From Yinghuangia seranimata (GTDB lineage Bacteria; Actinomycetota; Actinomycetes; Streptomycetales; Streptomycetaceae): 64,000 bases of DNA. Of this stretch, positions 11,827-58,733 are shown in pieces. A program made the position numbers and the translations under genes. The notes under the pieces are model-generated. The model did no database searches, had not been told where the DNA came from, and saw only the letters and a list, made by a program, of their open reading frames with translations. The number at the start of each line of letters is the position of its first letter. Position 1 is the stretch's first letter. The stretch covers positions 1 to 64,000 of the forward strand of contig NZ_JASAOI010000068.1 in NCBI RefSeq assembly GCF_029953285.1. The letters run 5' to 3'.

Positions 11827-11843
11827 GAGGTGGCGACGCACCC

Positions 11844-29445: not shown

Positions 29446-30201
29446 TCAGGCGCGGGCGTCGGCGCCGGCCGGGACCTTCGCGGCCCGGCCGGTGAGACGC
29501 TCGGCCTCGTGCAAGTGTGCGGTCAGTCGTTCGACGATGCGCTCCGACGCGTCCGTGACGGCGCGCCGGGAGCGCTTGCCGGTGTCGGGCGCGGGCAGGA
29601 ACGGCTTGCCGTACACGACGTCGATCTTCGCGCGGAACGCGGGCAGCGACCCGATGGACGCGCCGCGCTCGCCGGTGCCCAGGCAGGCGACCGGCACGAT
29701 CGGCGCGCCGGAGCGCATCGCGAGGTACGCGAGACCGTTGTGCACCTCGGCGAAGTCGCCCGCGCCGCGGGTGCCCTCGGGGAACACGCCGAGCGCGTTG
29801 CCCGCCTGGAGAACCTTCAGGGACGACATGATCATTCCCCGGTCGGCGCTGCCGCGGCTGACGGGGATGTGGCCGATGCCGCGCAGCACCGGGTCGAGCA
29901 CGCCGGTGAACATCTCCTGCTTGATCCAGAAGTGCACGGGGCGCGGGCTGAACGCGTACAGCAGCGGGCCGTCCGCGAAGTTGGTGTGGTTGCCGGCCAG
30001 GATGACCGGGCCGCCGAGCGGCACGTGGTGGGTGCCGAGTGAGCGGATCCGCCAGAACGACCGCAGCAGCGGGACACCGATCCAGTGCGCGGCGCCGGAC
30101 AGCGGCGGCTTGGTGATGTCGGCGGGCACCGGCCACCGGGGCCGGCGCGCCGGGTCCGCCGTGCCGCGCGGCGCGGGCAGCGGCGTCGTCCCCCGGCTCA
30201 C
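29446..30201 (-). CDS. 1-acyl-sn-glycerol-3-phosphate acyltransferase-like (PlsC family)
   Basis: The protein has 251 residues from a GTG whose GTGA overlaps the cmk stop, so translation is coupled. It has the PlsC motifs: catalytic NHTNFADG (H-x4-D) near residue 70, FPEGTRG near 145, and PIVPVACLG. Such enzymes transfer an acyl chain to lysophosphatidic acid in phospholipid synthesis at the inner membrane. In streptomycetes a PlsC-like gene between cmk and der is typical. A related acceptor cannot be excluded. Confidence 0.87.
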   Translation of the reverse strand: MSRGTTPLPAPRGTADPARRPRWPVPADITKPPLSGAAHWIGVPLLRSFWRIRSLGTHHVPLGGPVILAGNHTNFADGPLLYAFSPRPVHFWIKQEMFTGVLDPVLRGIGHIPVSRGSADRGMIMSSLKVLQAGNALGVFPEGTRGAGDFAEVHNGLAYLAMRSGAPIVPVACLGTGERGASIGSLPAFRAKIDVVYGKPFLPAPDTGKRSRRAVTDASERIVERLTAHLHEAERLTGRAAKVPAGADARA

Positions 30202-30881
30202 CGCAGGCGGTCCTCGACGAGGCCGAGCAGGTGGGCGACGACCTGGTCGCGGTCCATCTCGGTGGTGTCGACGAGCACGCCGTCGGCGGCCATCGACAGC
30301 GGGGCGGTGACGCGTCCCGAGTCGAGGGCGTCCCGGCGGGCGAGGTCGGCCTGGGTGGCGGCGACGTCGGTGCGCGGGTCGTTGTGCTCGGCGTTGCGGC
30401 GCGCGGCGCGGGCCGCCTCTGAGGCGGTGAGGTAGACCTTGAGGGCGGCGTCGGGGGTGACGACGGTGCCGATGTCGCGGCCTTCGACGACCATGCCGCC
30501 TTCGCCGATCGCGGCGCGCTGGAGGGCGACCAGGCGGGTGCGGATCTCGGGGACCGCGCTGACCGCGCTGACCGCGGCGGTGACCTCGGGGCCGCGGATG
30601 GGGCCGGCGACGTCGACGCCGTCGACGGTGATGGTCGGCCCGGCCGGGTCGGTGCCCGACACGATGTCCGGCTTGTCGGCGGCCGCCGCGACGGCGGCGG
30701 CGTCGTGCACGTCCACGCCGTTCCCGAGCATCCACCACGTCACGGCGCGGTACATGGCGCCGGTGTCGAGGTAGCGCAGCCCGAGCGCCTGGGCGACCGC
30801 CCTGGAGACGCTGGACTTGCCGGAACCGGACGGTCCGTCGACCGCGACCACGATCGTCGCGAGCGGCGTGCGTGCTTCCAC
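30198..30881 (-). CDS. cmk: Cytidylate kinase
   Basis: The protein phosphorylates CMP and dCMP. The GTG at 30881 is chosen because GAAGGG lies 9-10 bases upstream and it gives a family-length protein (227 residues); an ATG at 30920 would add 13 residues. The P-loop is VDGPSGSGKSSVSRAVA, with LRYLDTGAMYRAVTW, the CMP-domain VEGRDIGTVVTPDA and LDSGRVTAPLSMA. It is the first gene of the cmk / plsC-like / der operon. Confidence 0.95.
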   Translation of the reverse strand: MEARTPLATIVVAVDGPSGSGKSSVSRAVAQALGLRYLDTGAMYRAVTWWMLGNGVDVHDAAAVAAAADKPDIVSGTDPAGPTITVDGVDVAGPIRGPEVTAAVSAVSAVPEIRTRLVALQRAAIGEGGMVVEGRDIGTVVTPDAALKVYLTASEAARAARRNAEHNDPRTDVAATQADLARRDALDSGRVTAPLSMAADGVLVDTTEMDRDQVVAHLLGLVEDRLR

Positions 30882-30964
30882 GGTCGATGACCCTTCGATG
30901 TTCTGGGGGGGGTGTCCCATCGAGGGTACCGGGAACGGGAGGGCCCGATCATCCCCGAATCCGT

Positions 30965-34913: not shown

Positions 34914-37900
34914 TCATCCCGGGTCCTCGCCCGGCAGCACCATCCACAGCGTCTCCAGACGGAAAGGCAGCAACGCCGGACGGCCGTTCGGCGGCCGCAT
35001 GTACAGGCTGTCGCCCGCCATCGCCAGGTGCGCGACCGTGCTGGTCAACGGCTCGCCGTTGTACGCCGTCGCGGCCACCCGCACGGCGCTGCCGCGGTCC
35101 AACGCGTCCGCCAGCACCAGACAGTCCTCCGGCCCCAGCAACGGCGCCGCCTCCCGCAGCCGCGCCGCCTTCGCCGGCAGCACCGGCGCCGGCCGCGCCG
35201 CCCGCTCCAGCAACTCCGCCGCCCACTCCTGCCAGTCCTTCGACAGGTCCTCCGGCATCGGCAGCGCGACGGGCCAACTCCCCTGCCGCTCCGACGACTC
35301 CGCCCGGAACTCGGCGGGCCGCTCCACCAGCGCGCTCCCCGTCTCCGTCTCCGCGGCCGGCGCGTACCCCGCCCGCCGCATCGCCGCGACCGAAGCCTCC
35401 AACGGCTCCGCCGACAACAGCACCGTCGGCGCGATCCGCCGCAACCGCAGCGCGGACAACGCCCGGTGGTGCAGCAACTCCGTGACGAGGGCCTCGTCGT
35501 CGGAATAGACCACACACGCCGCGGGCGCCGCGCGCACCCGACCGTACCGGCGGCCCACCGCGTGGATCAGGTACTCCAACGGCTGCGGCAACTCCCCGAC
35601 GGCCACCTCCGCCAACTCCGCCAACAACCCGGCTGCGGTCCCCCCGGCATCCAAATGCCGCCGCACCGACGCCTCCCCGAACCGCCACACCCGCGCCCGG
35701 CCCTGCGTCTCGGCGTTCGCACACCCGTTCAACAACCGCGCCAACTCCACGGCAGGCGCCCCCGCGACAACCACCGTCAAATCCGCCTGAAACCGCGCCC
35801 GCCGCACCGCGGGAGGCAACAACTCCTCAGCGGCTGCCAACAACGCCGCCGCACTGTGCTGAACGGCGACCCCACCCCCAAGCGCCGTCAACGCCCCGTC
35901 GGCCACCAACCCCAACGCCGTCGCCTCAGCCAACGCCGCCACGGTGAACGCGACAGCGTCGAACCGCCCGCGATACGCATACTCAAGCTCCTCAGCGGCG
36001 TCGCGACAGTCGGGGCAGTCACAGGGCGCGGTGAGAGAGAGATCGGCCCCAAGCCGCAGCAGGTCGACCGACCCAGCCGCCGAATCCCCCGCAGTCGAGG
36101 GCACCTCCGACGAGCGGCCCGCACCCGACGCCCCAGCGTCGCCCCCGATGCCGGAGGCGGGGACCGAACCGGGTTCCGAAGCAACGGAATCAGCAGAGCC
36201 GGACGCCGCACGCGCGGCGTCGCGGCCGACCGACGAACCGGCCAGGTCGGACGCCGCAGCTGTGGGCCGACCTGCAGGCGTACCCGGTAGACCAGCCGCA
36301 GCAGGGGCCGCGCGCGAAGCGTGGCGGTCGACCGACGCGGAGGGGGCACCGGGCGCTGCGCCATCGCCATCGTCGGGAGCCAAGTGCGCCGAGGCCGCGA
36401 TCAGAGGCGCAGCGTACTGCGCGTCGCGGCCTCCCGCCGGTGCCGACGGACCGCTGGGAGCACCTTCCGCTGCCTCAGCCTCCGTTGCCGCCCCGCGCGC
36501 AGCGTCGCGGGCGATCGGTGGGACGGCCGGATCGGGCTCCGTAGCGGTGGAGTCGCCCGAAGGCGCGCCTGTTAGGCCCGTCGCAATAGCGGCCGCGCGC
36601 GAAGCGCCGCGGGCGACCGTCGGGGAGGAGGCGGGGGGAGCTGACGCTCCGCCGTCGTCGAGGCCCGTCGGCGTCGACAAGGCGCTCGAACAGCGCTCCG
36701 CCACCCCGGTCTCCGCGTCGCCCGCCCCGCGCGCAGCGTCGCGGCCATCGGGCGGCGCGCCACGTGAACCGCCTTCGCCTGCCAAGCCCTCGCCCTGCTG
36801 TGCCGAGGGGGCACCGACCGCTGCGGCATCGTCGGCATCAACGGCCGTCGGCGCCGGCAGACCGCCGGGACCGCCCTCCACTGCCCCGGCCTCCGCGTCG
36901 CCCGCCCCGCGCGGGGCGTCGCGGTCGGCAAGCCGCAGAGCGCCTGAACCGGTTTCGTCCGCCTCTCCCTCAACGCCCTTCGCCGCAGCCGGCGCCATGT
37001 TCGAGGCACCGCGGTCAGCACGGCCTGGCAGCGTCGGGCCGGTCCGTTCGTCGGAGAGGGGGTGGCGGGCGGGGACGGGGACGGTGGCGACGAGTTCTCG
37101 GTGTGGTGGGTCCGGGGGGTGGTGGGGGTCCGGGTCGGCGACGATCTCGTCGAGGCCTTGGCGGAAGGGGGTTGGGCAGATCCAGGCCACGCAGCGGGCC
37201 AGTGCCGTGGTGTCGGTGACTGCGCGGTCGGGGTTCTGGGTTCCCAGGGTTCGGAGGAGGGCGCCGCGGGCGACGAGGGCCAGGCCGCCGTGCCGTGAGG
37301 TGCCGGAAAGCGGGGCCGGGGGGCGGGATTTCGGCGGGGTGGTGGATACCGTCTCGAGGAGCGGGCTCGCGGCGGGGGTGTGTGCGGGCGGCGTGGCCGT
37401 GGAGTTCAGGACGTCCAGCGTCGGGGCGTCCGGCATCGTCACCCAGCCTCGGACCAACGCCAGCAGCCGCGCGGCCGGTTCGTTGTCGAGCCACTCGTCG
37501 TACGTGCGGGTCGGCAGGACCTGTCCGCGTTCCTGGTCGGCGACCACCAGCCCCGCCGACTCGACGACGTGCAGCCACAGCCGTACCGCGGCCTCGTCGC
37601 AGGCCAGTTCGCGGGTCAGGCGGCGCAGCTCCCGTACGCCGACGCCGCCGCTCTTGAGCAGTTGGGGCGGGCTCACCGCGCAGGTGTGCAGCAGGCGGGT
37701 CGCCTGGTCGAGCGCGGCCGCGGCGGCCGCGGCGGAGGCCCCGAGCACCGCCGCCCGGTCGACGGGCGCGGTCGGAACGTCCGGCGGCCGCGCCTCGAAC
37801 GGAACGCGGTAGTCGTCGCCGCGCAGCGCCAGCGCGACCTCGCGCGGCATCATCTCCCAGCCGTCGCCGGTCGGCAGCAGCAGGCCGCGGCGGCGCAGCC

Positions 37901-38663
37901 GGGCGTAGCCGTCGACGTTCGCCGGGTTCGCCGCCCGACGCCGGTAGTAGCCCCAGTCGGCGCTGGGGTCGCGGCGGATGCCGACCTCGGTCAGCTCCTC
38001 GAGCGCGGCGCGGGCCGGCGGATCGAGGCGGGACGCGACGCGCCGCACCACGTCGGGGTCGGCCAGCAGCCGCGCGGCGAGGGCCGCGTTGTCGTCCTTG
38101 CGGCCCGCCGGGAGGCCGCCCAACTCTCGGACGATGGCCTGGAGTTCCTCGGGCCGCTGGCCGAGCAGCAGGCCGTACGCGGGTGCGCCGAGCCCGAGCG
38201 GCAGCGGGAACACCGACGCCGATCCGGGGTGCAGGCGGATCCGACCGTCCTCGGGCCAGGCCAGCACGCGAGCAGTCAACGCGTCCAGTGCGGGGGCGAG
38301 TTCGTGGACCTCGGCGTGGTGCGCGCCGCCGACGAGACTGAGGAGCGCGTCGGGGTCGACGACCACAACGGGGTCGTCGTCGAGCCGCGGACCGGCCTCC
38401 CGCCCGATGCGCGCCGCACCGCCGGGTGGCCGCTCTTCAGCGACGGCCCACAGCACTTCGAGGAGCTGGAGTTCGCCGCGACTGAGGAACGAGCAGCCCA
38501 ACAGGGCGGTTTCGGGGTCCGCCAGGCACACGGCGAGGTGACGCAAGGTGGTCGGCCGCGGGAACTCGGGCACCGTCGGAGTGGTGGTGACGATGTGCGC
38601 GAGGTCGGGTGCGGAGAGCGAAGCGAGGTACACCGCGAGCGAGTCGGTGGTGGACAGCGTCAC
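34914..38663 (-). CDS. Giant helicase-associated (Helicase_C_3, XPB/Ssl2-like) protein with low-complexity insert
   Basis: The protein has 1249 residues from a GTG at 38663; an upstream in-frame ATG at 38858 adds non-conserved sequence. N-terminal SLAVYLASLSAPDLAHIVTTTP and FLSRGELQLLEVLWAVAEE, and C-terminal RARFQADLTVVVAGAP, VWRFGEASVRRHLDAGGTAAGLLAEL and ACVVYSDDEALVTELL, are those of streptomycete helicase-associated proteins. Those are about 750-850 residues; the excess is an Ala/Gly/Asp-rich region at ~530-870 with repeated RDAARGAGDAE-like units. A CDCPDC motif follows. I see no Walker A or B motif, so it is probably not a helicase by itself; the role may be in DNA repair or transcription. 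Confidence 0.8.
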   Translation of the reverse strand: MTLSTTDSLAVYLASLSAPDLAHIVTTTPTVPEFPRPTTLRHLAVCLADPETALLGCSFLSRGELQLLEVLWAVAEERPPGGAARIGREAGPRLDDDPVVVVDPDALLSLVGGAHHAEVHELAPALDALTARVLAWPEDGRIRLHPGSASVFPLPLGLGAPAYGLLLGQRPEELQAIVRELGGLPAGRKDDNAALAARLLADPDVVRRVASRLDPPARAALEELTEVGIRRDPSADWGYYRRRAANPANVDGYARLRRRGLLLPTGDGWEMMPREVALALRGDDYRVPFEARPPDVPTAPVDRAAVLGASAAAAAAALDQATRLLHTCAVSPPQLLKSGGVGVRELRRLTRELACDEAAVRLWLHVVESAGLVVADQERGQVLPTRTYDEWLDNEPAARLLALVRGWVTMPDAPTLDVLNSTATPPAHTPAASPLLETVSTTPPKSRPPAPLSGTSRHGGLALVARGALLRTLGTQNPDRAVTDTTALARCVAWICPTPFRQGLDEIVADPDPHHPPDPPHRELVATVPVPARHPLSDERTGPTLPGRADRGASNMAPAAAKGVEGEADETGSGALRLADRDAPRGAGDAEAGAVEGGPGGLPAPTAVDADDAAAVGAPSAQQGEGLAGEGGSRGAPPDGRDAARGAGDAETGVAERCSSALSTPTGLDDGGASAPPASSPTVARGASRAAAIATGLTGAPSGDSTATEPDPAVPPIARDAARGAATEAEAAEGAPSGPSAPAGGRDAQYAAPLIAASAHLAPDDGDGAAPGAPSASVDRHASRAAPAAAGLPGTPAGRPTAAASDLAGSSVGRDAARAASGSADSVASEPGSVPASGIGGDAGASGAGRSSEVPSTAGDSAAGSVDLLRLGADLSLTAPCDCPDCRDAAEELEYAYRGRFDAVAFTVAALAEATALGLVADGALTALGGGVAVQHSAAALLAAAEELLPPAVRRARFQADLTVVVAGAPAVELARLLNGCANAETQGRARVWRFGEASVRRHLDAGGTAAGLLAELAEVAVGELPQPLEYLIHAVGRRYGRVRAAPAACVVYSDDEALVTELLHHRALSALRLRRIAPTVLLSAEPLEASVAAMRRAGYAPAAETETGSALVERPAEFRAESSERQGSWPVALPMPEDLSKDWQEWAAELLERAARPAPVLPAKAARLREAAPLLGPEDCLVLADALDRGSAVRVAATAYNGEPLTSTVAHLAMAGDSLYMRPPNGRPALLPFRLETLWMVLPGEDPG
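35960..37060 (-). repeat. Degenerate RDAARG-type coding repeats inside the helicase-associated protein
   Basis: Units containing GRDAARGAGDAE, RDAPRGAGDAEAG and RDAARGAATEAE recur about every 50-60 residues. The matching DNA core ccgcgcgcagcgtcgcgg is seen near 36498 and 36722, with variants near 36208 and 36905. Similar cores appear in scpB (near 54680 and 54770). Confidence 0.7.
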
Positions 38664-38860
38664 CCGTCCAGACTGCCAGAAGCCCCGGAGGGGTTGGCAG
38701 TTTCGGCGGGGTGGCGCAGGGGTGGCGCTCTGCGAAACGGCGGACGCCACGACCGCTTTCGACGACCCGAGTTGCAGGTGCGCCGGATGCGCCGGGACGG
38801 GCGGAGCGCGCTTCCAGGTGCCGTCACACGTGCGCGGCGGGCAGTCGTTGAGCCGCATCG

Positions 38861-41350: not shown

Positions 41351-43510
41351 TCAGCCTTCCGCCGCCGGCTCCCCCTCCGCGAACGGGTTGAGCTCGAGCC
41401 AGCGCCGTCCGATCTCCTGGTAGTACACCTCGTCCCACGCCGAATGCCGCAGCACGTCGTCGAGGACCGGGTACGGGGCGAGCCTGCGCCGGTCGCTGAC
41501 CATGTCCTGGGCGAGGATCCGCAGCGGTTTGGCCGGGTCCTTCTCCAGCGTCAGCACGACCCGCACCACGCGTTCGAACAGGTGTCGGACGGCCTGGGGG
41601 TCGACGCCCGCCTCGACCAGCCGGTCGCCGTACCGGACGGGGTACAGCAGCGTGTGCCGCACGGCGTGCCGCTCGCGTTGGGACCAGCGCGGCGCGTCGT
41701 CGAGGCGCCGCGGCAGGTGCTCGACGACGTACGGCATGAGCCGTATGTCGGCCAGCTCCAGCGCGGCGGCCAGCGCGACGATGTCCTCGACGAACGCCAC
41801 CGCGCGCTCGGCTCCCCCGTCGGCGACCTGGTCGGCGGCGAACTTGAGGGCGTCGATGTCCTCGTCGTAGACGCCCCTGTGCTTCCAGCGCTCGTGTTCG
41901 GCGGTCCCCGCGCTGGGCGGCGGCGCGTCGGGACGGTCCGGGAGCGCGGCGCCGACGGTCTGCGCGGCAGGCGCGGAGCGCCGGGGGAAGGCCTCCGGTT
42001 CGCCGCTCAGGGCGTCGTCGTCGAAGGCCGGCACAGCTGCCGTATGGAGACCGGTGGCCTCCGTGAGGTCGGACTCGGGTGCGGGCTCCACCCCGCGGCC
42101 GACGTCAGCGTCACGTGCCCCGTCCTGGCGTGGCAGTGGGCCCCGCCCGCCGTCCGGGCCGGTCTCGTCGCCACTCGCCGCGCCGTCGCCCGGTCCCCGT
42201 CCCGGTTCCGGCCCCCGTCCCGGCCCCGGCCCCGGCTCCGGCTCCGGCCCTACCGCCCCGCCCTCGTCGTCCCCCACCCGCTTGTCGAAGAACGCGAACG
42301 TCGACGACTCGTCCCCACGCCCGCCGCCCCGCTCCGCGTACGCCTCGGCCTCCGCCTCGTCCCATTCCAGGTCGTCGAACGCCGTCGGGCCGACCCGGAG
42401 CGGCTCGGGCGCCCGCACGAGCCCGGCCGCGCGCAGTCTCGCCGTCCGCTCCAGCGGATCCACCGGTCCGTCGTCGTCGGCGGGCTCGTCCGGCGTCGTG
42501 TCGAAGCCGGACTCGACGGCCTCGTGCACCCGGTCGACGGCCTCAGCCGCGAGCGCCGCGTCCGTCGCGATGCCGCCCGACCAGCCGGCCGTCGTGCCCG
42601 ACGCGGCCGCGAACCGGTCGCGGATCTCGACGGCGCGGTCGTACGGCGGCATGCCGCGCACCGACTGCAGCCCGGTCAGCAGCGGGTACATCGTGTCCCA
42701 GTCGCTGTCGGCGTACCGGCGCACCATGAGGTCGGCGGCCACCCGGAACACGTCGGTCCGCGCCTCGGCGTCGGGGTCGATGCGGTGGCGGCCGCTCCAC
42801 AGCCGCGACGGCCAGCGCGGCACGACCACGAACCGGGGCCGCCCCGTGTCGTCGGCGGTCTCGTACGTGGAGAACGTGAGCGGCCCCGGCAGCGGCACAG
42901 TGATCAGGTCGAAGAGCCCCCACAGCAGCCCCACCGGGTCGCCGCCCGTGTCGGCGGTACGCAGCGAGAACCCCATCGTCGGGCGGCGCAGCACCGCGGC
43001 GAGCACGACCGCCAGCGCGTCGCCCTGTTCGCGGGCCGCGTCGCGGAGCGCGAACGCCCGTTCGGTGAGCGCGTCGTCGAGGATCTTCGCCGGGACGCGG
43101 GCCAGCCGGCGCCCCACCGGGATCTCGCCGAGCGCGGGCTGCCCCGCGCGCCACGACCAGCCGTCGAGGGCCAGCACCGCGTGCGGGGTGAGCGCGGCGC
43201 GGGTGCCGAGCAGGACGTGGGCGTTGTTGCCGAGCCGGCCCTGTTCGAACTCGGCGGCCACGCGGTGCACGACGGCCGCGTACGCGTCGACGTGCACCAG
43301 CGAGGTGCTGGTCAGCGGGGCCCCGTCGCCGCCGAACTCGGCGGCGACGGAGTCGGCCAGGTCGGGCCCCAGCCGCGCGAGGTCCGCGACCGGCAGGGAG
43401 GTCGCGGCCGGGCCGAGGCCCTTGCGTCCGAACAGGTCTTGGCGCTGCCACCGGTAGACGATCTGGTGCAGCGGCTGGCGGGTCGTCGTCGCGCGGGTGG
43501 AGCCCTCCAT
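41351..43510 (-). CDS. Large protein of unknown role, paralogue A
   Basis: The protein has 719 residues, with GAGGGG before the ATG. The N-terminal domain (~10-230) shares with paralogue B the patterns IVYRWQ.QDL.GR.GLGPAAT, LLWG.FDLI and FSTYETADD.GRPRFVVVPRWP. The C-terminal domain (~575-719) ends VYYQEIGRRWLELNPF, again like B. Between them (~340-560) lies an acidic, Pro/Gly-rich linker (GPEPEPGPGPGRGPEPG). I do not recognise either domain securely; GTPase-associated proteins of actinobacterial conflict or regulatory systems are one possibility. No GTPase gene is adjacent. It starts 10 bases after the stop of B, so they form one operon. Confidence 0.7.
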   Translation of the reverse strand: MEGSTRATTTRQPLHQIVYRWQRQDLFGRKGLGPAATSLPVADLARLGPDLADSVAAEFGGDGAPLTSTSLVHVDAYAAVVHRVAAEFEQGRLGNNAHVLLGTRAALTPHAVLALDGWSWRAGQPALGEIPVGRRLARVPAKILDDALTERAFALRDAAREQGDALAVVLAAVLRRPTMGFSLRTADTGGDPVGLLWGLFDLITVPLPGPLTFSTYETADDTGRPRFVVVPRWPSRLWSGRHRIDPDAEARTDVFRVAADLMVRRYADSDWDTMYPLLTGLQSVRGMPPYDRAVEIRDRFAAASGTTAGWSGGIATDAALAAEAVDRVHEAVESGFDTTPDEPADDDGPVDPLERTARLRAAGLVRAPEPLRVGPTAFDDLEWDEAEAEAYAERGGGRGDESSTFAFFDKRVGDDEGGAVGPEPEPGPGPGRGPEPGRGPGDGAASGDETGPDGGRGPLPRQDGARDADVGRGVEPAPESDLTEATGLHTAAVPAFDDDALSGEPEAFPRRSAPAAQTVGAALPDRPDAPPPSAGTAEHERWKHRGVYDEDIDALKFAADQVADGGAERAVAFVEDIVALAAALELADIRLMPYVVEHLPRRLDDAPRWSQRERHAVRHTLLYPVRYGDRLVEAGVDPQAVRHLFERVVRVVLTLEKDPAKPLRILAQDMVSDRRRLAPYPVLDDVLRHSAWDEVYYQEIGRRWLELNPFAEGEPAAEG

Positions 43511-43520
43511 GACTACCCCT

Positions 43521-45713
43521 CTATATGGAGTCCGCCGGAGTGGGGAGAAGGGACCGGCTGGCGGCCCACAGCCGCCCGATCTCCTCGTAGAACCGTGCGC
43601 CGAGGCCGTGTGCCACCACGGCGCGGATGAGTTCCTGCTGGTAGGGCCGGTAGGTGCCGGGCACCGTGTCGAGGTTGCGGACGACCAGCGCGAGCTGCTC
43701 GGCTGTGTTGCCAGTCTGGCACCCGTCGAGGACAAATGCGGCGAACTGTCCGATGATCGAGGCGATCTGATGGCGTGCCACACCGCTGCGGTCGAGCGTG
43801 CGCAGCGGTCCGTCGAGGGCCGCGAGCGCGCGTTCGAGGTACGCCTGGTCCCGCGGCGACGGCAGCGCGGACGCTCCGCCCACCGCGGCCACGACGAGTT
43901 CGCCGAGCCGCCCCAACAGCGCAGGCAGCAAGGGCTCTTCGGCCCGTTCCAAGGCGACCGCGACCGCGACGAGCGAGGCCTGCGACACCAGCCGCCGCAC
44001 CTCGTCGTCGGCGCCCGCAGCTCCGCCGGACAGCACGCGCGCGGCGTCCGCGAGCGAACGGAACGAGTGTTCGTCGACTCCGTCCGCGGCCCACGCGGCG
44101 TGGTTCCAGTCCCGCGGCGCGGGTTCGGCGACCGCCGGGGGCGGCGCGGCCCCGAACTGGACGGGAGGAGCGGGCGGAGCGGAAGGCGGCGGTACGGGCG
44201 GCGCCGGCGGTGCGGCCCCGAACGCGCCCGGCGCGGCGGGCGGCGCCGCGGGCCGCGCGGCCATCGGCGGCACGGACTCGCCTCCGCCCCGGGCCCGTTC
44301 GGGCACGGGCAGCGCGACGGGCAGGTACCGCGTTTCGGGCTGGACGGGCGCGGGCCCGCGCGGCCGCTCGACCCGGGGCGGAGCAACGGCCGCGCCTGCG
44401 GCGACGGGTCGCCCGGATTCGGCCGCCACACCGGCACGCCGTCCGACGCCGTCGTTCTCGCCCGCGGCCCCGCCGCCCTGCGCTGCAGGCGCGTTCGCGA
44501 CCCCCTCCGCGTCGAGGAACCGTTGGTCCGGCTGCCCGGCGCCGCGGCCTTGAGGCCGCTCCACCCGAGGCGGAGCGACGGCCGCGACGGGCGCGACGGA
44601 CGCCGCCGGGCGGGCGCCCCCGTCGGCGAACTGCTCTGTCCCTGCGGCCGGCTGCCCGTCGCCGCGCACCAACTCGTCCCAGTCGGACGGAGTCTCGCCG
44701 CCCAGTCGGCCCGCCGCCGCGCGGACCGCCGCCTGGGCCGCGTGGGCCTCGTGCGTCCTGCGCGGGTCCTTCCGCAGGTTCACCGGAACGCCCGCGCCTG
44801 CCGGGGCCGGTGGCGCGCCGGCGATGGCGTCCTTGATGGCGTCGGCCTTGGCGTCCGGTCCGAGTTCGGCGATCGTGCGCAGGCCGCGCAGGAGTTGGCG
44901 GGTCTGGTCCCACGGCCGTTCGACGTAGAAGTCCACGAGCAGCCGGGCCGCCTCCGCGCACGCGCCGGTGTCGAGTTCGGCCGCGCCGAGCCGCACCCGC
45001 CCTCGGGTCGCCCGCCCGTCGGGCCAGCGCGGGACGACCACGAAGCGGGGCCGGTTCGCGTCGTCGGCGGTCTCGTACGTCGAGAAGCTCCAACTGCCGC
45101 GCACCAGATGGCTCACCAGGTCGAAGACGCCCCACAGCAGCGGCGCCGGGTCGGGCCCGGCGTCGGCGCGGAGCAGCGACAGGCCGGCGCGCGGTCGGGC
45201 GAGGAGCGCGGCGGTGACCTGTTCGAGGACGGCGCGCCGGTCGCGGGCGGCGGCCCGCATCGCGTCGGCCCGTTCGTGGGCGACGGCGACGAGGCGGCCC
45301 GCGGCGATGCGTTCGAGACCGGGCCCGGATTCGGGGTCGGCGAGGGCCGGCCCGTCGGTCGCCCAGTCGAACATGCCGAGCGCGAGCACCACATGCGGCC
45401 CGAGCGCGCGCCCGGGGTCGAGCAGGGCGTGGGCGACGTTGCCCGGCGTGTTGTCGCGCCCGTGCAGCGCGAACTCGCGGTGTATCAGGGCCGGTCCGGC
45501 CGCGGTGCGGGCCCAGCACACGCTCGTGTACGGGCCGGTCTCGACGTCGACGTCCATGCCGACGTACTCGGCCAGCCCGTCGGCCCACTGCGGCAGCCGG
45601 TCCGCGGGCAGCGTGGTCGCCGCGGGCCCGAGCCCGCGCCGTCCCAGCAAGTCGCGTTCCTGCCACCGGTAGACGATCCGGTCGAGCAGTGCACCACCCG
45701 CGTCCGCCGCCAC
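43521..45713 (-). CDS. Large protein of unknown role, paralogue B
   Basis: The protein has 730 residues; the GTG at 45713 has GGGGGGT just upstream, while a TTG at 45725 is less likely. The N-terminal domain has LDRIVYRWQERDLLGRRGLGPAATTL, GVFDLVSHLVRGSWSFSTYETADD and NRPRFVVVPRWP. The C-terminal domain ends FYEEIGRLWAASRSLL. The linker (~330-560) contains the 12-residue repeat VAPPRVERPxG twice and a Pro/Ala run. The pair with A is an ancient duplication, the ends conserved and the linkers different. A two-component complex of unknown purpose is a reasonable guess. Confidence 0.7.
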   Translation of the reverse strand: MAADAGGALLDRIVYRWQERDLLGRRGLGPAATTLPADRLPQWADGLAEYVGMDVDVETGPYTSVCWARTAAGPALIHREFALHGRDNTPGNVAHALLDPGRALGPHVVLALGMFDWATDGPALADPESGPGLERIAAGRLVAVAHERADAMRAAARDRRAVLEQVTAALLARPRAGLSLLRADAGPDPAPLLWGVFDLVSHLVRGSWSFSTYETADDANRPRFVVVPRWPDGRATRGRVRLGAAELDTGACAEAARLLVDFYVERPWDQTRQLLRGLRTIAELGPDAKADAIKDAIAGAPPAPAGAGVPVNLRKDPRRTHEAHAAQAAVRAAAGRLGGETPSDWDELVRGDGQPAAGTEQFADGGARPAASVAPVAAVAPPRVERPQGRGAGQPDQRFLDAEGVANAPAAQGGGAAGENDGVGRRAGVAAESGRPVAAGAAVAPPRVERPRGPAPVQPETRYLPVALPVPERARGGGESVPPMAARPAAPPAAPGAFGAAPPAPPVPPPSAPPAPPVQFGAAPPPAVAEPAPRDWNHAAWAADGVDEHSFRSLADAARVLSGGAAGADDEVRRLVSQASLVAVAVALERAEEPLLPALLGRLGELVVAAVGGASALPSPRDQAYLERALAALDGPLRTLDRSGVARHQIASIIGQFAAFVLDGCQTGNTAEQLALVVRNLDTVPGTYRPYQQELIRAVVAHGLGARFYEEIGRLWAASRSLLPTPADSI

Positions 45714-52612: not shown

Positions 52613-53674
52613 TCAGAGGCCGACCTCGCGGAACAGCAGGCCGATCTCCTCGTTCGACAGCCGCCGGGTGCGGCCCGGGCGCTGGTCGCCGAGTTGGATC
52701 GGGCCGAACTTCGTGCGCACCAGGCGCTCGACGGGGAAGCCCAGCTCGGCCAGCATGCGCCGGACGATGTGCTTGCGGCCCTCGTGCAGCACGACCTCGA
52801 CCATGTAGGTCTTGCCGAGCTGGTCGATGATGCGGAAGCTGTCGGCGCGCGCCAGACCGTCGTCGAGCTCGACGCCTTCCTTGAGGCGCTTGCCCAGGTC
52901 GCGCGGGATCGGGCCCTGGATCTGCGCGAGGTACGTCTTGCGGACCTCGTAGCTCGGGTGCGTCAGGCGGTTCGACAGCTCACCGTGGTTGGTGAGCAGG
53001 ATCAGGCCCTCGGTCTCGGTGTCGAGGCGGCCGACGTGGAACAGGCGCTGCTCGTGGTCGGTGATGTACTCCGCCAGCGTCGGGCGGCCCTCCGGGTCGA
53101 ACATGGTCGACACAACGCCCGCGGGCTTGTTCAGCGCGATGTAGACCTCGCCGCTGGACGTCGGGATGCGCAGGCCGTCGACCTTGATCTCGGCCTTCGC
53201 CGGGTCGACCCGCAGGCCCTGCTCGCGGACGACCTGGCCGTCGACCTCGACGCGGCCCATCTCGATCAGCTCTTCGCACGCGCGGCGGCTGCCGATGCCG
53301 GCCTGCGCCATGACCTTCTGCAGGCGGACGCCCTCCTGGGCCTCGCGCGGCGTACGCGGCTGCTCGCGCACGACCGTCGGACGCCGGTCCGGACGCCCGG
53401 TCCCCGTGCCCTGCCCCTTGCCGCGCCCGCCGCCGGAACCCTGGCCCTGGCCGTAGCCGCCGCCCTGGCCGCCCGAACGGGACCCGCCGCCGTAGCCGCC
53501 GCCCTGGCCGCCGGAACCCCGGCCACCGCCCGAGGCGCCCCGTCCGGACCCCGCGCCGCGACCCTCACCACCGGCGCCGCGGCCGCCCCGCGGGGCGCCC
53601 GAGCGCTCGTCGCGGTTGTTGCCCGCGCCGCGGTAGTTTCCTCGGCCGGAGCCCTGCCTGCCTGTGCCAGCCAT
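52613..53674 (-). CDS. rluB: 23S rRNA pseudouridine synthase (RluB/RsuA family)
   Basis: The protein has 353 residues from an ATG whose first base overlaps the scpB stop (TGATG), so translation is coupled. Residues 1-100 are Gly/Arg/Gln/Tyr-rich, like an RNA-binding RGG tail. Residues 117-160 are an S4 domain (VRLQKVMAQAGIGSRRACEELIEMGRVEVDG). The synthase domain has LNKPAGVVST, and catalytic Asp218 in GRLDTETEGLILLTN. LHEGRKHIVRRMLAELGFPVERLVR identifies the RluB/RsuA group; which rRNA position is modified is inferred. It ends the scpA-scpB-rluB set. Confidence 0.88.
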   Translation of the reverse strand: MAGTGRQGSGRGNYRGAGNNRDERSGAPRGGRGAGGEGRGAGSGRGASGGGRGSGGQGGGYGGGSRSGGQGGGYGQGQGSGGGRGKGQGTGTGRPDRRPTVVREQPRTPREAQEGVRLQKVMAQAGIGSRRACEELIEMGRVEVDGQVVREQGLRVDPAKAEIKVDGLRIPTSSGEVYIALNKPAGVVSTMFDPEGRPTLAEYITDHEQRLFHVGRLDTETEGLILLTNHGELSNRLTHPSYEVRKTYLAQIQGPIPRDLGKRLKEGVELDDGLARADSFRIIDQLGKTYMVEVVLHEGRKHIVRRMLAELGFPVERLVRTKFGPIQLGDQRPGRTRRLSNEEIGLLFREVGL

Positions 53675-55422
53675 CAATCGTCCGTAGTCGTCTGACCGGT
53701 CTCCTCCGCCGTCGCCCGCGGCGCGGGAACGGGGTCGTGACCGGTGTCGGTGGGGTCGTCGGCCGCGGGGGCGGGGTCTGCGGGAGCGCCGTCGTCGGGC
53801 TCCTCGGCGTCCGCCGCCGCGGGGTCTTCCCCACCAGTATCCCCGGTTCCGGCCTCCAGCGGCGCCACCGGGCCCGGCGAGCGCAACGGGAACCCGCCGA
53901 GCTCGCCCTCGGTCTCCGCCTCCAGCGCCTCGACGTCGGGCAGGAACGGCGCCAACTCGGGCAACTCGTCGAGGCTCCCCAGGCCCATGCGCTCGAGGAA
54001 GAAGTCCGTCGTGCGGTAGAGGAACGCCCCGGTTTCCGGCTCCGTCCCGTACTCCTCGACGAGCCCACGCGCGAGCAGCGTCCGCATGACGCCGTCGCAG
54101 TTGACCCCGCGCACCGCCGAGATCCGGCTCCGACTGACCGGCTGCCGGTACGCGACGACGGCGAGCGTCTCCAACGCGGCCTGCGTCAGCTTCGACTGCT
54201 GCCCGTCGAGGACGAACTTCTCCACGGCTTCGGCGTGCTCGGGCCGCGTGTAGAACCGCCAGCCACCCGCCACCTGACGCAGATCGAACCCCCGCCCCTG
54301 CGCGGTGTACTCGGCCGACAACTCCCGCAGCGCCGACAGCACGGTCTCGGTGGGCTGCTCGAGGACCTGCGCGAGCACGATGTCCGGAACAGGGTTCTCG
54401 ACGACCATGAGGACGGCCTCGAGCTGCGGCTTGAGGAACGAGGGATCCCCGACGGCGCTGACGACCGCGCCGGAGTCGGCCACCACATCGACGGCCGCCT
54501 CAGCCGCAGCGCCGGCGGCGTCACCGGAACCGGCCGCCGCGCCGGCGGCGGCGCCCGCCGCATCGTCGACAGCGGCCTCGCCCGCAGAGGTCTCGACGGC
54601 CTCGGTAGAGGCTTCGCGCCCGCCCGCCTGCATGTCTGTGCTGGATCCGGCAACGCCGGTGGTGGCCTCCTCGTCGCCGCGCGCAGCGTCGGCGACGGAT
54701 TCGTTCGCGCTCGCGCCGTGAGCACCCGTGACCGGGGAAGCTCTGCCGTTCATGGGCTCGGCATCGCCGCGCGCAGCGCCGGCGGTACCGGCGGCCGCTT
54801 CGTCGCCGCCCGCCCGAGGCGCATGATGCACGCCTGCGCCCCCGCTGGCGTGCATGCCCGAGGGGGCAGCGTCGTGCCGGTCGGGGCGCGGAGCATTGGC
54901 TGCGGCCTGCGGGTCGGGCTCCGCCTCGGTGTCGCGGCGGCCGTCGTCCACATCTGCGGCCGCGTCAGGCGCCGGCGCAGCCGTCACAGCTTCGCTGTGG
55001 CCGGCGTCCTCGCCCGTGTCGGAGCCGGGAACCGCGTCGGCGGCCGCACTCTCGGCAGCGGCTTCGTTCCCCTGGGCGCCGGCGGTCTCGTCGGTCGCCT
55101 CGCCCTCGTCCGACGCCGCGGCATCGGCGGAGCCCCCGGCCGGGTCGGCTTCGACGTCGGTGGGGTTCTCGTCGGGGCGATGCGCGCCGATCGTCCCGTG
55201 GGCCTCTGCTCGGGGCTCGGGGAGGGCGTCCGCTTCCGGCCAGGCCGCCGCCTCCGGGTCGCGGGCGTGGCTGTGTTCGATTTCGGGCTCGTCGGTGTCC
55301 GCGTTCTCACGCGGTATGGGCAGCGCGGCGGTGTCCGTGCCCGTCGGGTCCGGGCGTGGGGGCGACGCGGGGGTGGGCGGCGGGTCGTCGGGCGGTTCGA
55401 TCCAGAACCCGTCGTCGCTCAT
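53674..55422 (-). CDS. scpB: Segregation and condensation protein ScpB
   Basis: This 582-residue protein is a subunit of the SMC/ScpAB condensin complex. ATGA at its start overlaps the scpA stop. The core is at ~335-520: two winged helices including LKPQLEAVLMVVENPVPDIVLAQVLEQP, SKLTQAALETLAVVAYRQPVSRSRISAVRGVNCDGVMRTLLARGLVEEYG and TGAFLYRTTDFFLERMGLGSLDELPEL. The first ~330 residues are disordered, acidic and Ala/Gly/Asp-rich, with ADAARGDEEATT-like units. Usual ScpB is 180-250 residues. This extension is a striking lineage feature; its role is unknown. Confidence 0.93.
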   Translation of the reverse strand: MSDDGFWIEPPDDPPPTPASPPRPDPTGTDTAALPIPRENADTDEPEIEHSHARDPEAAAWPEADALPEPRAEAHGTIGAHRPDENPTDVEADPAGGSADAAASDEGEATDETAGAQGNEAAAESAAADAVPGSDTGEDAGHSEAVTAAPAPDAAADVDDGRRDTEAEPDPQAAANAPRPDRHDAAPSGMHASGGAGVHHAPRAGGDEAAAGTAGAARGDAEPMNGRASPVTGAHGASANESVADAARGDEEATTGVAGSSTDMQAGGREASTEAVETSAGEAAVDDAAGAAAGAAAGSGDAAGAAAEAAVDVVADSGAVVSAVGDPSFLKPQLEAVLMVVENPVPDIVLAQVLEQPTETVLSALRELSAEYTAQGRGFDLRQVAGGWRFYTRPEHAEAVEKFVLDGQQSKLTQAALETLAVVAYRQPVSRSRISAVRGVNCDGVMRTLLARGLVEEYGTEPETGAFLYRTTDFFLERMGLGSLDELPELAPFLPDVEALEAETEGELGGFPLRSPGPVAPLEAGTGDTGGEDPAAADAEEPDDGAPADPAPAADDPTDTGHDPVPAPRATAEETGQTTTDD

Positions 55423-56588
55423 ACCGGTTCCTCCACGTCGTCGCGCTGTTCTTCGGGTTCCGCCGAGGCCTCGGGTCCGTCCGGCGCGGGCGCGGTGCCG
55501 TCCGCCTCGTCGAACTCCGCGCCCACCTCGGGTGCGTCGGTGTCGCCGCCGGTCCACCGCACGTGCAGTTCGCCGAGCGCCTCGACCTGGTCGAACCCGA
55601 CGGCGGCCTCGCGGAACAGCTCCAGCAGGCACAGGAACCGCGCGATGACGTGCAGGTTGTCGGGGCAGTCGTCCGTGAGCGCACGGAACGTCAAAGCCCC
55701 GTGCCGGCGGAGCCGTTCGACGACGATCGCGGACTGCTCGCGGACGCTGACCCGCTGCACGTGGATGTGCTCGATCGAGACGAGCTTGGGTTCCTTCGGC
55801 GTCATCGCGCGCGCGGCCAGGCGCGCGAACTTGTCGAGGTCCATCTTGATGACGATCTCGGGCAGCAGCCCCGTGTACCGCTCCTCGAGCGGGACGGAGC
55901 GCGGGTAGCGGCGGCCTTCCTTCGCCCAGCGGTCCTCGAAGATCGACGCGATCTCCTTGTACGCACGGTATTGCAGCAGTCGCGCGAACAGCAGGTCGCG
56001 GGCCTCCAGGAGGGCGAGGTCCTCTTCGTCCTCGACCTCGGCGGCGGGCAGCAGCCGTGCGGCCTTGAGGTCGAGGAGTGTGGCGGCGACGACGAGGAAC
56101 TCGGTGGCGACGCCGAGGTCCCAGTCGGGCCCCTGCGCGCGGATGTACGCGATGAACTCGTCGGTGACCTTCGACAGCGACACCTCGGTCACGTCGAGCT
56201 TGTGCTTGGCGATCAGGCCGAGCAGCAGGTCGAAGGGGCCCTCGAAGTTGTCGAGCCGGACGGCGAATCCTTTGTGCTCGGACTCGGCGCCCGGCGTCGC
56301 TGCCGTCGGCCCGACGGGTCCGGCGTCCACCACGGCGACCACGGCGGACTCCTGGACGGCTTCCGCAGCCGCCTCGGGCACCTCGGCGGGTTCCGCCGCC
56401 CCGGCCTCCGGCTCCGGCTCCACCGCCTCGACGACCGGTTCCGCCCGCTCAGCCGCTTCCGCGGCCGTCTCGACGGCCTCCGTCGGCTCGACCGGCTCGT
56501 CCGGTCCGGCCGGAGGTGCCGTCGGCTCGGCCCCCGGTCCGCGTCCGAGGGCGCGGCGGGCGGGCGGTACGGAGTTCGCGGTGGGCAT
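55419..56588 (-). CDS. scpA: Segregation and condensation protein ScpA (kleisin)
   Basis: This 389-residue kleisin of the SMC complex has the core at ~105-335: FAVRLDNFEGPFDLLLGLIAKHKLDVTEVSLSKVTDEFIAYI binds the Smc neck. ATEFLVVAATLLDLKAARLLP and ALTFRALTDDCPDNLHVIARFLCLLELFREAAVGFDQ form the middle and C-terminal winged helix. The N-terminal 100 residues are acidic and Ala/Glu/Pro-rich. The stop overlaps the scpB start by 4 bases. A 286-bp gap (no gene) precedes it. Confidence 0.94.
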   Translation of the reverse strand: MPTANSVPPARRALGRGPGAEPTAPPAGPDEPVEPTEAVETAAEAAERAEPVVEAVEPEPEAGAAEPAEVPEAAAEAVQESAVVAVVDAGPVGPTAATPGAESEHKGFAVRLDNFEGPFDLLLGLIAKHKLDVTEVSLSKVTDEFIAYIRAQGPDWDLGVATEFLVVAATLLDLKAARLLPAAEVEDEEDLALLEARDLLFARLLQYRAYKEIASIFEDRWAKEGRRYPRSVPLEERYTGLLPEIVIKMDLDKFARLAARAMTPKEPKLVSIEHIHVQRVSVREQSAIVVERLRRHGALTFRALTDDCPDNLHVIARFLCLLELFREAAVGFDQVEALGELHVRWTGGDTDAPEVGAEFDEADGTAPAPDGPEASAEPEEQRDDVEEPV

Positions 56589-56874
56589 CGGGGTCCATGG
56601 TGCTGGGCGGGGACGTACCGGACGAGTCGCCCCGCCGGAGAGGAACGGATTTTCCTCCGGAACCCGTCGCCCGACAAGTGGACCGCGGCCGAACGGGACA
56701 CGACCCGTGCCCGGAAACTCGGCCGGGGCGGGTCCGCGCGCCGAGTGTCTCGGCAGCGGATCCGCCCCGCTCGTCGCCGTGTCGCGATGATCCGGTCAAC
56801 AGCCCGGCCGTCGGCCGTACCGTCACCCGGTCGGAGGCCGTCCAGAGCCCCGCCGGAGCGCCGTCGGCGCCCTG

Positions 56875-57555
56875 TCAGTGCCCCGGTGCCGCGCCCGGCC
56901 CCGGTCCGCCGCGCAACCGCCGCACCAGGATGCTCGCTTCGCCGCGGGCCTCCAGGTCGGCGAGGACGACCGCGATGGCCTCGCGCACTATCCGACCGCG
57001 GTCCACCGCGAGCCCGAAGTCGCCGCGGAGCGTGAGCCGGGCGTGTTCGAGGTCCATGAGTTCCTCGGCCGACACGTACACGGTGATCTTCTCGTCGTGC
57101 CGTTCCCGCCCGCTGGGGCGGCGCTGCACGCGGCCGCGCCGGGGGGCGGCGGCGGGGCGTGCCGTGGCCGCGCCGCCGGCGGGTTCGCGCGCGGGCGCGG
57201 GCACGGCGGTGCGCTGCTCGAGCATCCCGGCGGCGGCGCGCTCGGCGGCGAGCCGGGACTCCTGGTGGGCCTGGGCGATGACCGCGGCCTGTTCGTCGCC
57301 GGGACCGGTCGAACCGGCGGCGTCGTGGCCGGTGTTGTGCGGTCCGCTGTGCTCGGCCTCGGCGTCGCCGCCGTTGGCGGGGCCGGGGACGGCACGTGCG
57401 TGGCCGTTGCCGTTTCCGGACACCGCGCCCGGGACGCCCGACGCTCCGCCGGCCGCCGCGCCGTCGGCGCCCGCCGGCTCCGCGGCCTGCGGGCGCGCGG
57501 GCAGTCCGGCGCCCCCGGTGGTGCGGAACAGCTCGTCGGCGCCCGGAAGACTCAC
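56875..57555 (-). CDS. ParA-linked protein with probable ribbon-helix-helix end
   Basis: The protein has 226 residues from a GTG whose GTGA overlaps the parA-like stop, so the two are coupled. Residues ~1-150 are Ala/Gly/Pro/Arg-rich and probably disordered. Residues ~155-226 (ERHDEKITVYVSAEELMDLEHARLTLRGDFGLAVDRGRIVREAIAVVLADLEARG) begin with a strand-helix-helix pattern like CopG/MetJ-type RHH proteins. Small RHH proteins can be the centromere-binding partner of ParA ATPases; that role is inferred here only from coupling and fold pattern. The gene is conserved downstream of this ParA in streptomycetes as far as I recall. Confidence 0.7.
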   Translation of the reverse strand: MSLPGADELFRTTGGAGLPARPQAAEPAGADGAAAGGASGVPGAVSGNGNGHARAVPGPANGGDAEAEHSGPHNTGHDAAGSTGPGDEQAAVIAQAHQESRLAAERAAAGMLEQRTAVPAPAREPAGGAATARPAAAPRRGRVQRRPSGRERHDEKITVYVSAEELMDLEHARLTLRGDFGLAVDRGRIVREAIAVVLADLEARGEASILVRRLRGGPGPGAAPGH

Positions 57556-58733
57556 TCGGCGCGGCACCGGGCGAGCACCTCCCTCGCAAGCTGACGGTAT
57601 GCGGCGGCGCCCACCGAGTTGGACGCGTACGTCGTGATCGGTTCGCCCGCGACGGTGGTCTCGGGGAACCGGACGGTGCGTCCGATGACGGTGTGGAAGA
57701 CCTGCTCGCCGAACGCCTCGACGACGCGGGCGAGTACCTCGCGGCCGTGCACGGTGCGGACGTCGTACATCGTCGCCAGGATGCCGTCGAGGACGAGGTT
57801 CGGGTTGAGGCGCTCGTGCACCTTCTCGATCGTCTCGGTGAGCAGCGCGACGCCGCGCAGCGCGAAGAACTCGCACTCCAGCGGCACGATCACGCTGTCG
57901 GCGGCGGTGAGCGCGTTGACGGTCAGCAGGCCGAGGGACGGCTGGCAGTCGATGATGATGTAGTCGTAGTCCTGCACGAGCGGACGGATCGCGCGCGCGA
58001 GCGTTGTCTCGCGGGCCACTTCGGTGACCAACTGGACCTCGGCGGCGGACAGGTCGATGTTGCTCGGCAGCAGGTCCATGCCCGGGATGATGGTCTTCAG
58101 CAGGACGTCGTCCGCGCTGAGGTGCGACTCCATCAGCAGGTTGTAGACGGTGAGTTCGAGCTCCATCGGGTTGACGCCGAGGCCGACCGAGAGGGCGCCC
58201 TGCGGGTCGAAGTCCACGAGGAGGACGCGCCGTCCGTACTCCGCGAGCGCGGCGCCCAGGTTGATGGTCGACGTGGTCTTGCCGACGCCGCCCTTCTGGT
58301 TGCACATCGCGATGATCTTGGCGGGGCCGTGCTCGCCGACCGGGCCCGGGACCGGGAAGTAGGGCAGCGGGCGGCCGGTGGGACCGACGCGCTCGCGGCG
58401 CTGGGTCGCGGCGTCGGGCGCCAGGGTGGCGGCGTACTCCGGGTCGGGCTCGTAGTCGGCGTCCGGGTCGAAGGGCCCGCCGCGCAACTCCTCGGCGTAG
58501 CGCAGCTCGTCGTCGTAGTAGTACATGTCGTACGCGTACTCGTCCGCCTCGGCCCCGGCCGGGGCTCCAGCTGCACCCGCATGGTCGGCCGTCGACGGAG
58601 GCGCGGCGTCGCGCGTCCCCTGCTGCTCCGCGGCAGGGCCCGGGGTTCCCGCCCCGGTTCCCTGAACCGACCCACGGGGGGCCTGGGCCGACGCTGGCTG
58701 GGCACCCCCGGGAGCAAATGTCGACTCATTCAC
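57552..58733 (-). CDS. parA: ParA/MinD-family ATPase (orphan, in the scp region)
   Basis: The protein has 393 residues from a GTG with AAGGAGG upstream. Residues ~1-135 carry an acidic, Tyr-rich segment (YAYDMYYYDDELRYAEELRG). The ATPase follows with the deviant Walker A IAMCNQKGGVGKTTSTINLG near 140-155, LLVDFDPQGALSVGLGV, and the Walker B YIIIDCQPSLGLLTVNAL. VAGEPITTYASNSVGAAAYRQLAREV closes it. It is not the oriC-linked partition ATPase, as no parB or parS is near. A role in placing DNA or a protein complex with the SMC partners is plausible. Confidence 0.88.
   Translation of the reverse strand: MNESTFAPGGAQPASAQAPRGSVQGTGAGTPGPAAEQQGTRDAAPPSTADHAGAAGAPAGAEADEYAYDMYYYDDELRYAEELRGGPFDPDADYEPDPEYAATLAPDAATQRRERVGPTGRPLPYFPVPGPVGEHGPAKIIAMCNQKGGVGKTTSTINLGAALAEYGRRVLLVDFDPQGALSVGLGVNPMELELTVYNLLMESHLSADDVLLKTIIPGMDLLPSNIDLSAAEVQLVTEVARETTLARAIRPLVQDYDYIIIDCQPSLGLLTVNALTAADSVIVPLECEFFALRGVALLTETIEKVHERLNPNLVLDGILATMYDVRTVHGREVLARVVEAFGEQVFHTVIGRTVRFPETTVAGEPITTYASNSVGAAAYRQLAREVLARCRAE

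Follow-up and report, generated by a model that had tools for sequence, protein, structure and literature searches.

A paralogous gene pair of Yinghuangia seranimata encoding possible divergent relatives of GAP1 with a predicted longin-DENN-like N-terminal domain

Organization of the gene pair

The window, a 64,000-nucleotide stretch of the Yinghuangia seranimata genome, contained two adjacent genes, B and A, on the minus strand, with B upstream of A and a gap of 10 bp between them (Table 1). The preliminary description had located the pair at positions 41351-45713, which fitted exactly, and had placed A before B, an order that had to be reversed. Two frames of the minus strand contained all six motif strings searched for, and the FSTYET..PRFVVVPRWP motif was located in the second part of the A N-terminal domain. 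Both genes were called as coding by a codon model that had been trained on 13 stretches of the window, including a part of A. Searches for promoter-like, terminator-like, and Rfam features gave no match.

Table 1. Positions of genes A and B and of their domains in the window
Feature	Position	Strand	Description
Gene B	45713..43521	minus	730 aa, GTG start, first gene of the pair
Gene A	43510..41351	minus	719 aa, ATG start, second gene of the pair
B N-domain (AN)	44829..45686	minus	residues ~10-295, GAP1-N2/M-like; blastp against A
A N-domain, part 1	43166..43471	minus	residues ~14-115, longin-like fold predicted (AF2, VIA-align)
A N-domain, part 2	42602..43093	minus	residues ~140-303, DENN/GAP1-M-like; collinear GAP1-M profile match
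A Arg83 codon	43262..43264	minus	candidate functional residue
A linker	41891..42601	minus	residues ~304-540, low-complexity, fast-evolving
A C-domain	41366..41890	minus	residues ~541-715
B C-domain	43539..44081	minus	residues ~545-725, homologous to A C-domain

Each protein was composed of an N-terminal domain, whose shared family was named AN, and a C-terminal domain, which were joined by a linker. When A was compared with B by blastp, the sole alignment covered the N-domain only, with 128 of 287 residues identical (45%) and an E value of 1e-50. The C-domains were more diverged between A and B than the N-domains; the B-type C-domain profile found A at 4.1e-6 and the A-type profile found B at 2.7e-6, and the two profiles matched each other with an E value of 3e-11 and a score of 74, against at most 32.4 for 60 block-shuffled controls. 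The view of A and B as a paralogous pair with common N- and C-terminal domains was thus confirmed by blastp and profile comparison. Among the proteins gathered, the C-domain was restricted to A, B, and their orthologues, including G005_2 and G005_3 from another genus of the same family (G005). When the genome of the window (G000) was searched with the sequence of A, the matches were only A itself and B; a third, distant AN member was later found on another contig of this genome by an N-domain profile.

The linkers of A and B were low-complexity and rich in Ala, Gly, and Pro; as had been described, they were dissimilar to each other. The omega values of the linkers were 0.49-0.62, higher than the 0.28-0.38 of the N- and C-domains, and those of two neighbouring genes were 0.07-0.24; the domain values were obtained over dS of ~0.4-0.8 in three genomes, and the C-domains were about as constrained as the N-domains. 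Because of their composition and higher omega, the linkers are probably disordered, as the preliminary description had held.

The pair lies downstream of a SARP/Pr6Pr unit in this genome. The SARP gene of the window carried a BTAD domain, and the 'Pr6Pr' gene had no Pfam match. Among the relatives of the same genus (G001 and G002), only a Pr6Pr-like gene preceded B in G002, and neither a SARP nor a Pr6Pr-like gene preceded B in G001. Membership of A and B in a SARP/Pr6Pr unit was rejected, and the pair is not regarded as tied to these genes, because the neighbourhood is absent in G001. No match to the GTPase HMM was found among the called genes of the window.

Distribution of the AN family

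Neither A nor B matched any entry in Pfam, NCBIfam, PHROGs, or PADLOC, and no Pfam family was reached at E ≤ 1, so that no characterised family was recognized in these collections. When A was searched against PDB sequences, only an enolase was matched, at an E value of 0.5, and its C-domain had no match there. No plasmid match was found for A and no plasmid relative for canonical GAP1 or the third AN protein of G000, and the AN model had no match at E ≤ 0.001 in viruses.

Matches to A at E ≤ 0.001 were found in 7 of 21 genomes, its own included. The match in G015, which comprised 47 residues of the linker, was not counted, so that six genomes remained (G000, G001, G002, G005, G016, and G017). 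The pair itself was present in both same-genus genomes searched, and a locus of Yinghuangia soli (L011) showed the same gene run as that of G002 (L025). Of the two outcomes that the preliminary description had named as refuting it, a clear match to a characterised family and an absence of the pair from relatives, neither was encountered. With an alignment of the N-domain (A2), matches were found in 5 of 79 genomes of the class, again including its own. The AN family is real, though sparsely distributed. Two of the 21 relatives, G003 and G017, contained the canonical GAP1-N2 domain, and the copy in G017 was on another contig than AN. Within the order, GAP1-M was present in 15 of 60 genomes; within the phylum, PF20013 was matched in 1 of 50 genomes, with a score below the cut-off.

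Sequence comparison with GAP1

None of the AN proteins scanned, A and B included, scored above the cut-off for Pfam GAP1-N2, GAP1-M, or GAP1-C, while all three domains scored in two canonical GAP1 proteins used as controls (L045 and L046). A canonical GAP1 profile was composed of 18 of the 20 proteins gathered, with the omission of L061, the same gene as L046, and L066, which has an odd N-terminus. When AN profiles of 11 and 15 rows were compared with canonical GAP1-N2/M by hhalign, the scores were 39-42, with P values of 1.4e-4 and 6e-5 and probabilities of 53-65%, and the match was collinear over residues ~67-227 of A. A wider 13-row AN profile gave a P value of 1.6e-3 and a probability of 16%, and the comparison with just two canonical proteins gave P ~1e-3. 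Among the controls, reversed profiles scored 12.6-13.6, 60 block shuffles per query at most 21.2, and four unrelated profiles at most 22.0. Column shuffles scored at most 22.6 in 59 of 60 cases; the remaining one scored 132-134, above the real match, and was an end-gap artefact of 23 columns in the one of two queries for which it was inspected. HMMER gave E values of 0.014-0.044 at best, in lists in which unrelated proteins were interspersed; with the 15-row AN profile, no canonical GAP1 protein reached an E value better than 4.7. Remote homology between AN and GAP1 is likely on these sequence comparisons, though not proved.

The C-domains of A and B matched the GAP1-C region by hhalign only at an E value of 0.22, no better than controls, and contained no Pfam GAP1-C domain. 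The GAP1-type profile comparison proposed earlier for each end of the proteins gave a weak, collinear match to GAP1-N2/M for the N-domain and no relationship to GAP1-C for the C-domain.

Residue Arg83 (A numbering) was invariant in 15 of 15 aligned AN rows, and 12 of the 18 canonical GAP1 rows also had arginine at the corresponding position. As a guess, Arg83 of AN may be a catalytic finger; in FLCN, the catalytic arginine is located in the uDENN (longin-like) domain (PMC8336837).

Gene neighbourhoods of AN

Nine AN loci other than the A/B pair of this genus were read (L027, L028, L029, L030, L038, L074, L075, L076, and L077). A DO-GTPase and a kinase-like gene adjoined or were fused with AN in seven of the nine, and a tubulin-like gene was present within the same run in five. 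The GTPase neighbours suggested for examination in the preliminary description were found at these loci, beside AN or in the same polypeptide. The DO-GTPase2 domain scored above the Pfam cut-off in L027, L029, L030, and L038 and below it (E 7e-5) in L074, and the calls in L075 and L076 were made only with a one-sequence HMM built here. The Pkinase matches of L027 and L029 exceeded the Pfam cut-off, and that of L030 fell below it; L038 had no Pfam Pkinase match, and its kinase-like call, like those in L074, L075, and L076, came only from an HMM built here. The tubulin-like gene was recognized by PF13809 (Tubulin_2) in L027, L029, L030, and L038, and by our own HMM in L076. AN and the GTPase formed one polypeptide in L027 and L030. 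The AN protein of L028 was fused to a kinase domain, and no GTPase was seen in its neighbourhood or in L077. A sixth Tubulin_2 locus, that of G007 (L039), contained neither AN nor a GTPase.

The L038 locus, located on contig C31 of G000, was composed of a vWA gene, Tubulin_2, a gene for an 812-aa protein without Pfam match (X), a kinase-like gene, DO-GTPase2, and AN, in this order. Its vWA component, the sole one scanned with Pfam, scored above the cut-off for VWA and below it for MG2. The AN protein of this operon, the third member mentioned above, was ~26% identical to A. In the five tubulin operons with AN, the AN gene held the slot expected for GAP1. Tail sequences were displayed for five unfused AN proteins (L029, L038, L074, L075, and L076), and all of them ended in a hydrophobic stretch.

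In genome G170, a kinase-GTPase-AN run was followed by an FtsW/RodA-transpeptidase fusion gene. This neighbour leans towards an envelope rather than a conflict role.

History of the pair

In G005, the genes were arranged in a single run of vWA, Tubulin_2, X, kinase, AN-GTPase, B′ (G005_2), and A′ (G005_3). This operon lies in the chromosomal region that corresponds to that of the pair. One of its flanks contained homologues of the window genes at 52613-63808. Past two genes, the other flank contained a prephenate dehydrogenase gene in inverted orientation and a homologue of the window gene at 30198-30920. In an unrooted tree of the N- and C-domains, one split with support of 100/100 placed A on the side of G005_3 and B on that of G005_2, and a topology uniting the A and B proteins of this genus was rejected (p-AU 0.0002); the tree of the C-domain only carries a long-branch warning. 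When 16 N-domain rows with outgroups were used, B was grouped with G005_2 with support of 89/96; on the same rows, the grouping of A with G005_3 was neither shown nor rejected (p-AU 0.245), and that of A with B had a p-AU of 0.051. Because of these tree results, the A/B duplication is probably older than the split of the genera.

In G001 and G002, the pair was kept, and both frames were intact there as well as in G000. No Tubulin_2 or DO-GTPase2 match at E ≤ 0.001 was found in these two relatives, one underlying search having scored 84 of 127 first-look candidates in G001 and 84 of 135 in G002. G000 contained one Tubulin_2 and one DO-GTPase2, both in the C31 operon. The complete operon of G005 and the orphan pair in G001 and G002 indicate that A and B most likely represent the surviving end of an operon that has decayed, and the loss of the five upstream genes, with tubulin, kinase, and GTPase among them, in this genus would be simpler than their gain in G005 by parsimony only.

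Since the orthologues of A and B are the two AN genes at the end of a tubulin/kinase/GTPase operon, the pair does not represent a self-contained new system. The preliminary description had seen in A and B a possible undescribed two-subunit system; its suspicion of a GTPase-linked, GAP1-type system was a good one and is partly supported, and the self-contained novelty tied to the SARP/Pr6Pr genes was given up.

The absence of the greater part of the presumed ancestral operon from this site in the genus would also be expected if A and B were functionless, decaying remnants, that is, pseudogenes in the making. This reading is disfavoured by the intact orthologues in three genomes and the domain omega values well below 1, and it is very improbable. 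The pair might instead act in trans with the C31 operon, as additional GAP1-like subunits of a dispersed tubulin/GTPase system. The presence of that vWA-Tubulin_2-X-kinase-like-DO-GTPase2-AN operon on another contig of G000 is consistent with such an arrangement, but the operon has an AN protein of its own, and the pair was kept in two genomes in which neither of the two marker domains was matched at E ≤ 0.001 among the candidates scored; a trans-acting system is unlikely.

Predicted fold of the N-terminal domain

The AF2 model of the A N-domain, made with 11 AN sequences, had a pLDDT of 78 and a pTM of 0.78. The model of canonical GAP1-N2/M, made with 17 other proteins (alignment A3, from which L059 was also omitted), had a pLDDT of 86 and a pTM of 0.88. 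The order of strands and helices was broadly alike in the two models, and a few extra short helices were present in the canonical one.

When the AN model was compared with the PDB by Foldseek, the only match under 0.001 was TagF (PDB code 9t0n), with an E value of 9.5e-6 and TM-scores of 0.33/0.34. The canonical model matched TagF at 2.0e-4 and a chain of an FLCN complex at 4.2e-4, with TM-scores below 0.35. For both models, the TagF matches had Foldseek TM-scores of 0.30-0.34 and rmsd values of 9-14.

In comparisons by VIA-align, where Z scores of 7-8 are common without relationship, the AN model exceeded this level only just: TagF 9t0n was aligned with a Z score of 8.7 and an rmsd of 5.1 over 241 residues, spanning A residues 10-284, and residues ~9-150 were aligned with longin-type chains at Z scores of 6.2-8.6. 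These chains, named from the titles of the PDB entries, belonged to KICSTOR/GATOR1, a Lokiarchaeota roadblock-longin protein, Lst4, FLCN complexes, and Sec22b; those matched within KICSTOR/GATOR1 and the FLCN complexes are presumably the longin proteins of these assemblies. DENND10 was aligned with the AN model over 253 residues with a Z score of 5.4. The DENN matches of the canonical model lay above the common level, with Z scores of 11.0 for DENND1B in complex with Rab35 (rmsd 4.7, 249 residues), 10.2 for DENND1A, and 9.8 for DENND10, and its scores for TagF and FLCN were 7.3 and 6.5, respectively. On these models, a longin-DENN-like fold is predicted for the N-domain of A and B.

The searches of open-access PMC papers yielded no announcement of a longin fold for GAP1 or of a bacterial DENN protein, and no occurrence of phrases such as 'bacterial DENN' or 'bacterial longin'. 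The main text of Kaur et al. (2020, PMC7159879) contains none of the words 'longin', 'DENN', 'TagF', or 'roadblock'.

Proposed role of A and B

A and B are best explained as paralogous, divergent relatives of GAP1 that have a longin-DENN-like, GTPase-binding N-terminal half and were retained from a decayed operon, a reading to which we assign a probability of roughly 0.55. A and B would form a heterodimer, by analogy with FLCN-FNIP2 or C9orf72-SMCR8, which are cited as pairs of DENN paralogues (PMC8336837). The N-domains of A and B would bind the switch of a GTPase and alter its nucleotide state or location. The flexible linker would join this half to the small C-domain, and the C-domains may serve as output.

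The candidate partner in G000 is the DO-GTPase of the second, complete operon on C31. In G001 and G002, the partner may be another GTPase, or the pair may keep a scaffold role only. Streptomycetes have conservon-type Ras-like GTPases, which would be further candidates.

The pair could also have lost its link to GTPases altogether and become a lineage-specific scaffold, for example at the cell wall or division site, acting through the linker and C-domain. The orphan state in two genomes, the similar constraint on C- and N-domains, and the FtsW/RodA-transpeptidase fusion gene next to the run in G170 agree with a scaffold, but the N-domain has retained the conserved residues of the family, including the invariant Arg83, and we consider this role improbable. 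Under the GTPase-binding reading preferred above, the orphan pair is a natural experiment in which the regulator half was kept without the tubulin, and in two genomes without a DO-GTPase2 found.

A wider proposal is more tentative and somewhat less probable than not. A bacterial longin-DENN superfamily, composed of canonical GAP1-N2/M, AN, and TagF, may regulate TRAFAC-type GTPases coupled to tubulin-like polymers and kinases, with the A-B heterodimer as the counterpart of FLCN-FNIP2 and C9orf72-SMCR8. DENN modules are described as longin, DENN, and d-DENN domains that act as GEFs for Rab GTPases in a 2012 survey (PMC3521125), which traces many of them back to the ancestral eukaryote and considers longins to have arisen from prokaryotic GAPs of MglA-like GTPases. 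If the proposal is true, the module traced to the ancestral eukaryote would gain bacterial relatives. The name GAP1 was given in 2020 to a partner of GTPases. A longin-DENN fold would assign to GAP1 a biochemical role that can be tested, that of a GTPase regulator, and would also suggest that the Rab/Rag regulators of eukaryotic membrane traffic have a bacterial counterpart.

Comparison with known systems

The TagF protein of type VI secretion (PDB codes 9t0n and 6iz8) was the top Foldseek match of both models and, according to PMC5995506, works beside a kinase, a phosphatase, and Fha. However, its operons differ from those of A and B, neither A nor B has a Pfam TagF match, and the TM-scores were ~0.3.

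The eukaryotic longin-DENN proteins (DENND1, DENND10, FLCN-FNIP2, C9orf72-SMCR8, and GATOR1) resemble AN and canonical GAP1-N2/M in the predicted fold and act as paralogous pairs on small GTPases, whereas AN and GAP1 are bacterial and have no PDB sequence match.

The AN operons also resemble the FtsZl1/vWA membrane-remodelling operons, in which a tubulin-like gene, vWA, a Ser/Thr kinase, and a divergent GTPase occur together; further unnamed associated families are placed in the supplement by Makarova and Koonin (2010) (PMC2875224).

The closest known proteins are GAP1 of the GAP1-N2 DO-GTPase systems, which are assigned to a tubulin theme in the relevant passages of Kaur et al. (2020, PMC7159879; Pfam PF20013, PF20014, and PF20052). 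Like GAP1-N2, AN is in most of the loci read located downstream of or fused to DO-GTPase2, together with tubulin-like and vWA genes, and its N and M regions show a weak collinear match to those of GAP1 and a similar predicted fold. The hydrophobic tails of AN proteins are comparable to the C-terminal TM segments that those passages report for many GAP1 proteins (PMC7159879). A and B differ from GAP1 in that their C-domain is unrelated to GAP1-C and lacks a hydrophobic tail, they are below all GAP1 Pfam thresholds, they form a paralogous pair, and no GTPase or tubulin adjoins them in this genus. In the scheme of Kaur et al., kinases mark a different theme, whereas the AN loci combine tubulin and kinase-like genes (PMC7159879). 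With these differences, A and B are regarded as a variant of the GAP1/tubulin systems, and their operon context comes close to the theme described there for GAP1-N2.

Operon context of the AN domain

In the genome of the window itself, a complete operon in the order vWA–Tubulin_2–X–kinase-like–DO-GTPase2–AN was located on another contig (C31; L038:153-12457), where AN is the N-domain family common to proteins A and B. Protein X, of 804–916 aa, was encoded between the tubulin and the kinase in all five tubulin operons with AN, and four of these proteins (L038, L027, L029, and L030) matched no Pfam family above the cut-off when scanned. A partial relative of 359 aa preceded AN at locus L077, which was without tubulin.

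Genes for protein X in the tubulin operons with AN
Locus	Positions
L038	5771-8209
L027	4611-7190
L029	11477-13972
L030	10239-12653
L076	11648-14398

A protein kinase domain followed by an AN domain formed one fused protein (L028:6905-8902), a further AN copy in G005, a genome of another genus, ~62 kb away from its AN triplet. In G007, Tubulin_2 was contained in a 1651-aa protein (L039:8055-13010), among whose neighbours no AN or DO-GTPase genes were found. At L074:3793-12505, kinase-like, DO-GTPase, and AN genes were followed by an FtsW/RodA-transpeptidase fusion gene (1019 aa), an order that possibly links the AN run to the cell envelope.

Other genes in the window

Apart from A and B, a tandem gene pair (10063-13550) matched a small kinase profile (1.2e-10 and 2.7e-11). 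A 1314-aa protein (34914-38858) contained Helicase_C_3 (PF13625) and a long low-complexity stretch, and its gene adjoined a prephenate dehydrogenase gene, as in the genomes of the same genus that were compared.

Structural comparison with TagF

The best Foldseek match for the models of both AN and canonical GAP1-N2/M was the T6SS repressor TagF (9t0n / 6iz8). TagF may belong to one longin-DENN-like superfamily with AN and canonical GAP1-N2/M.
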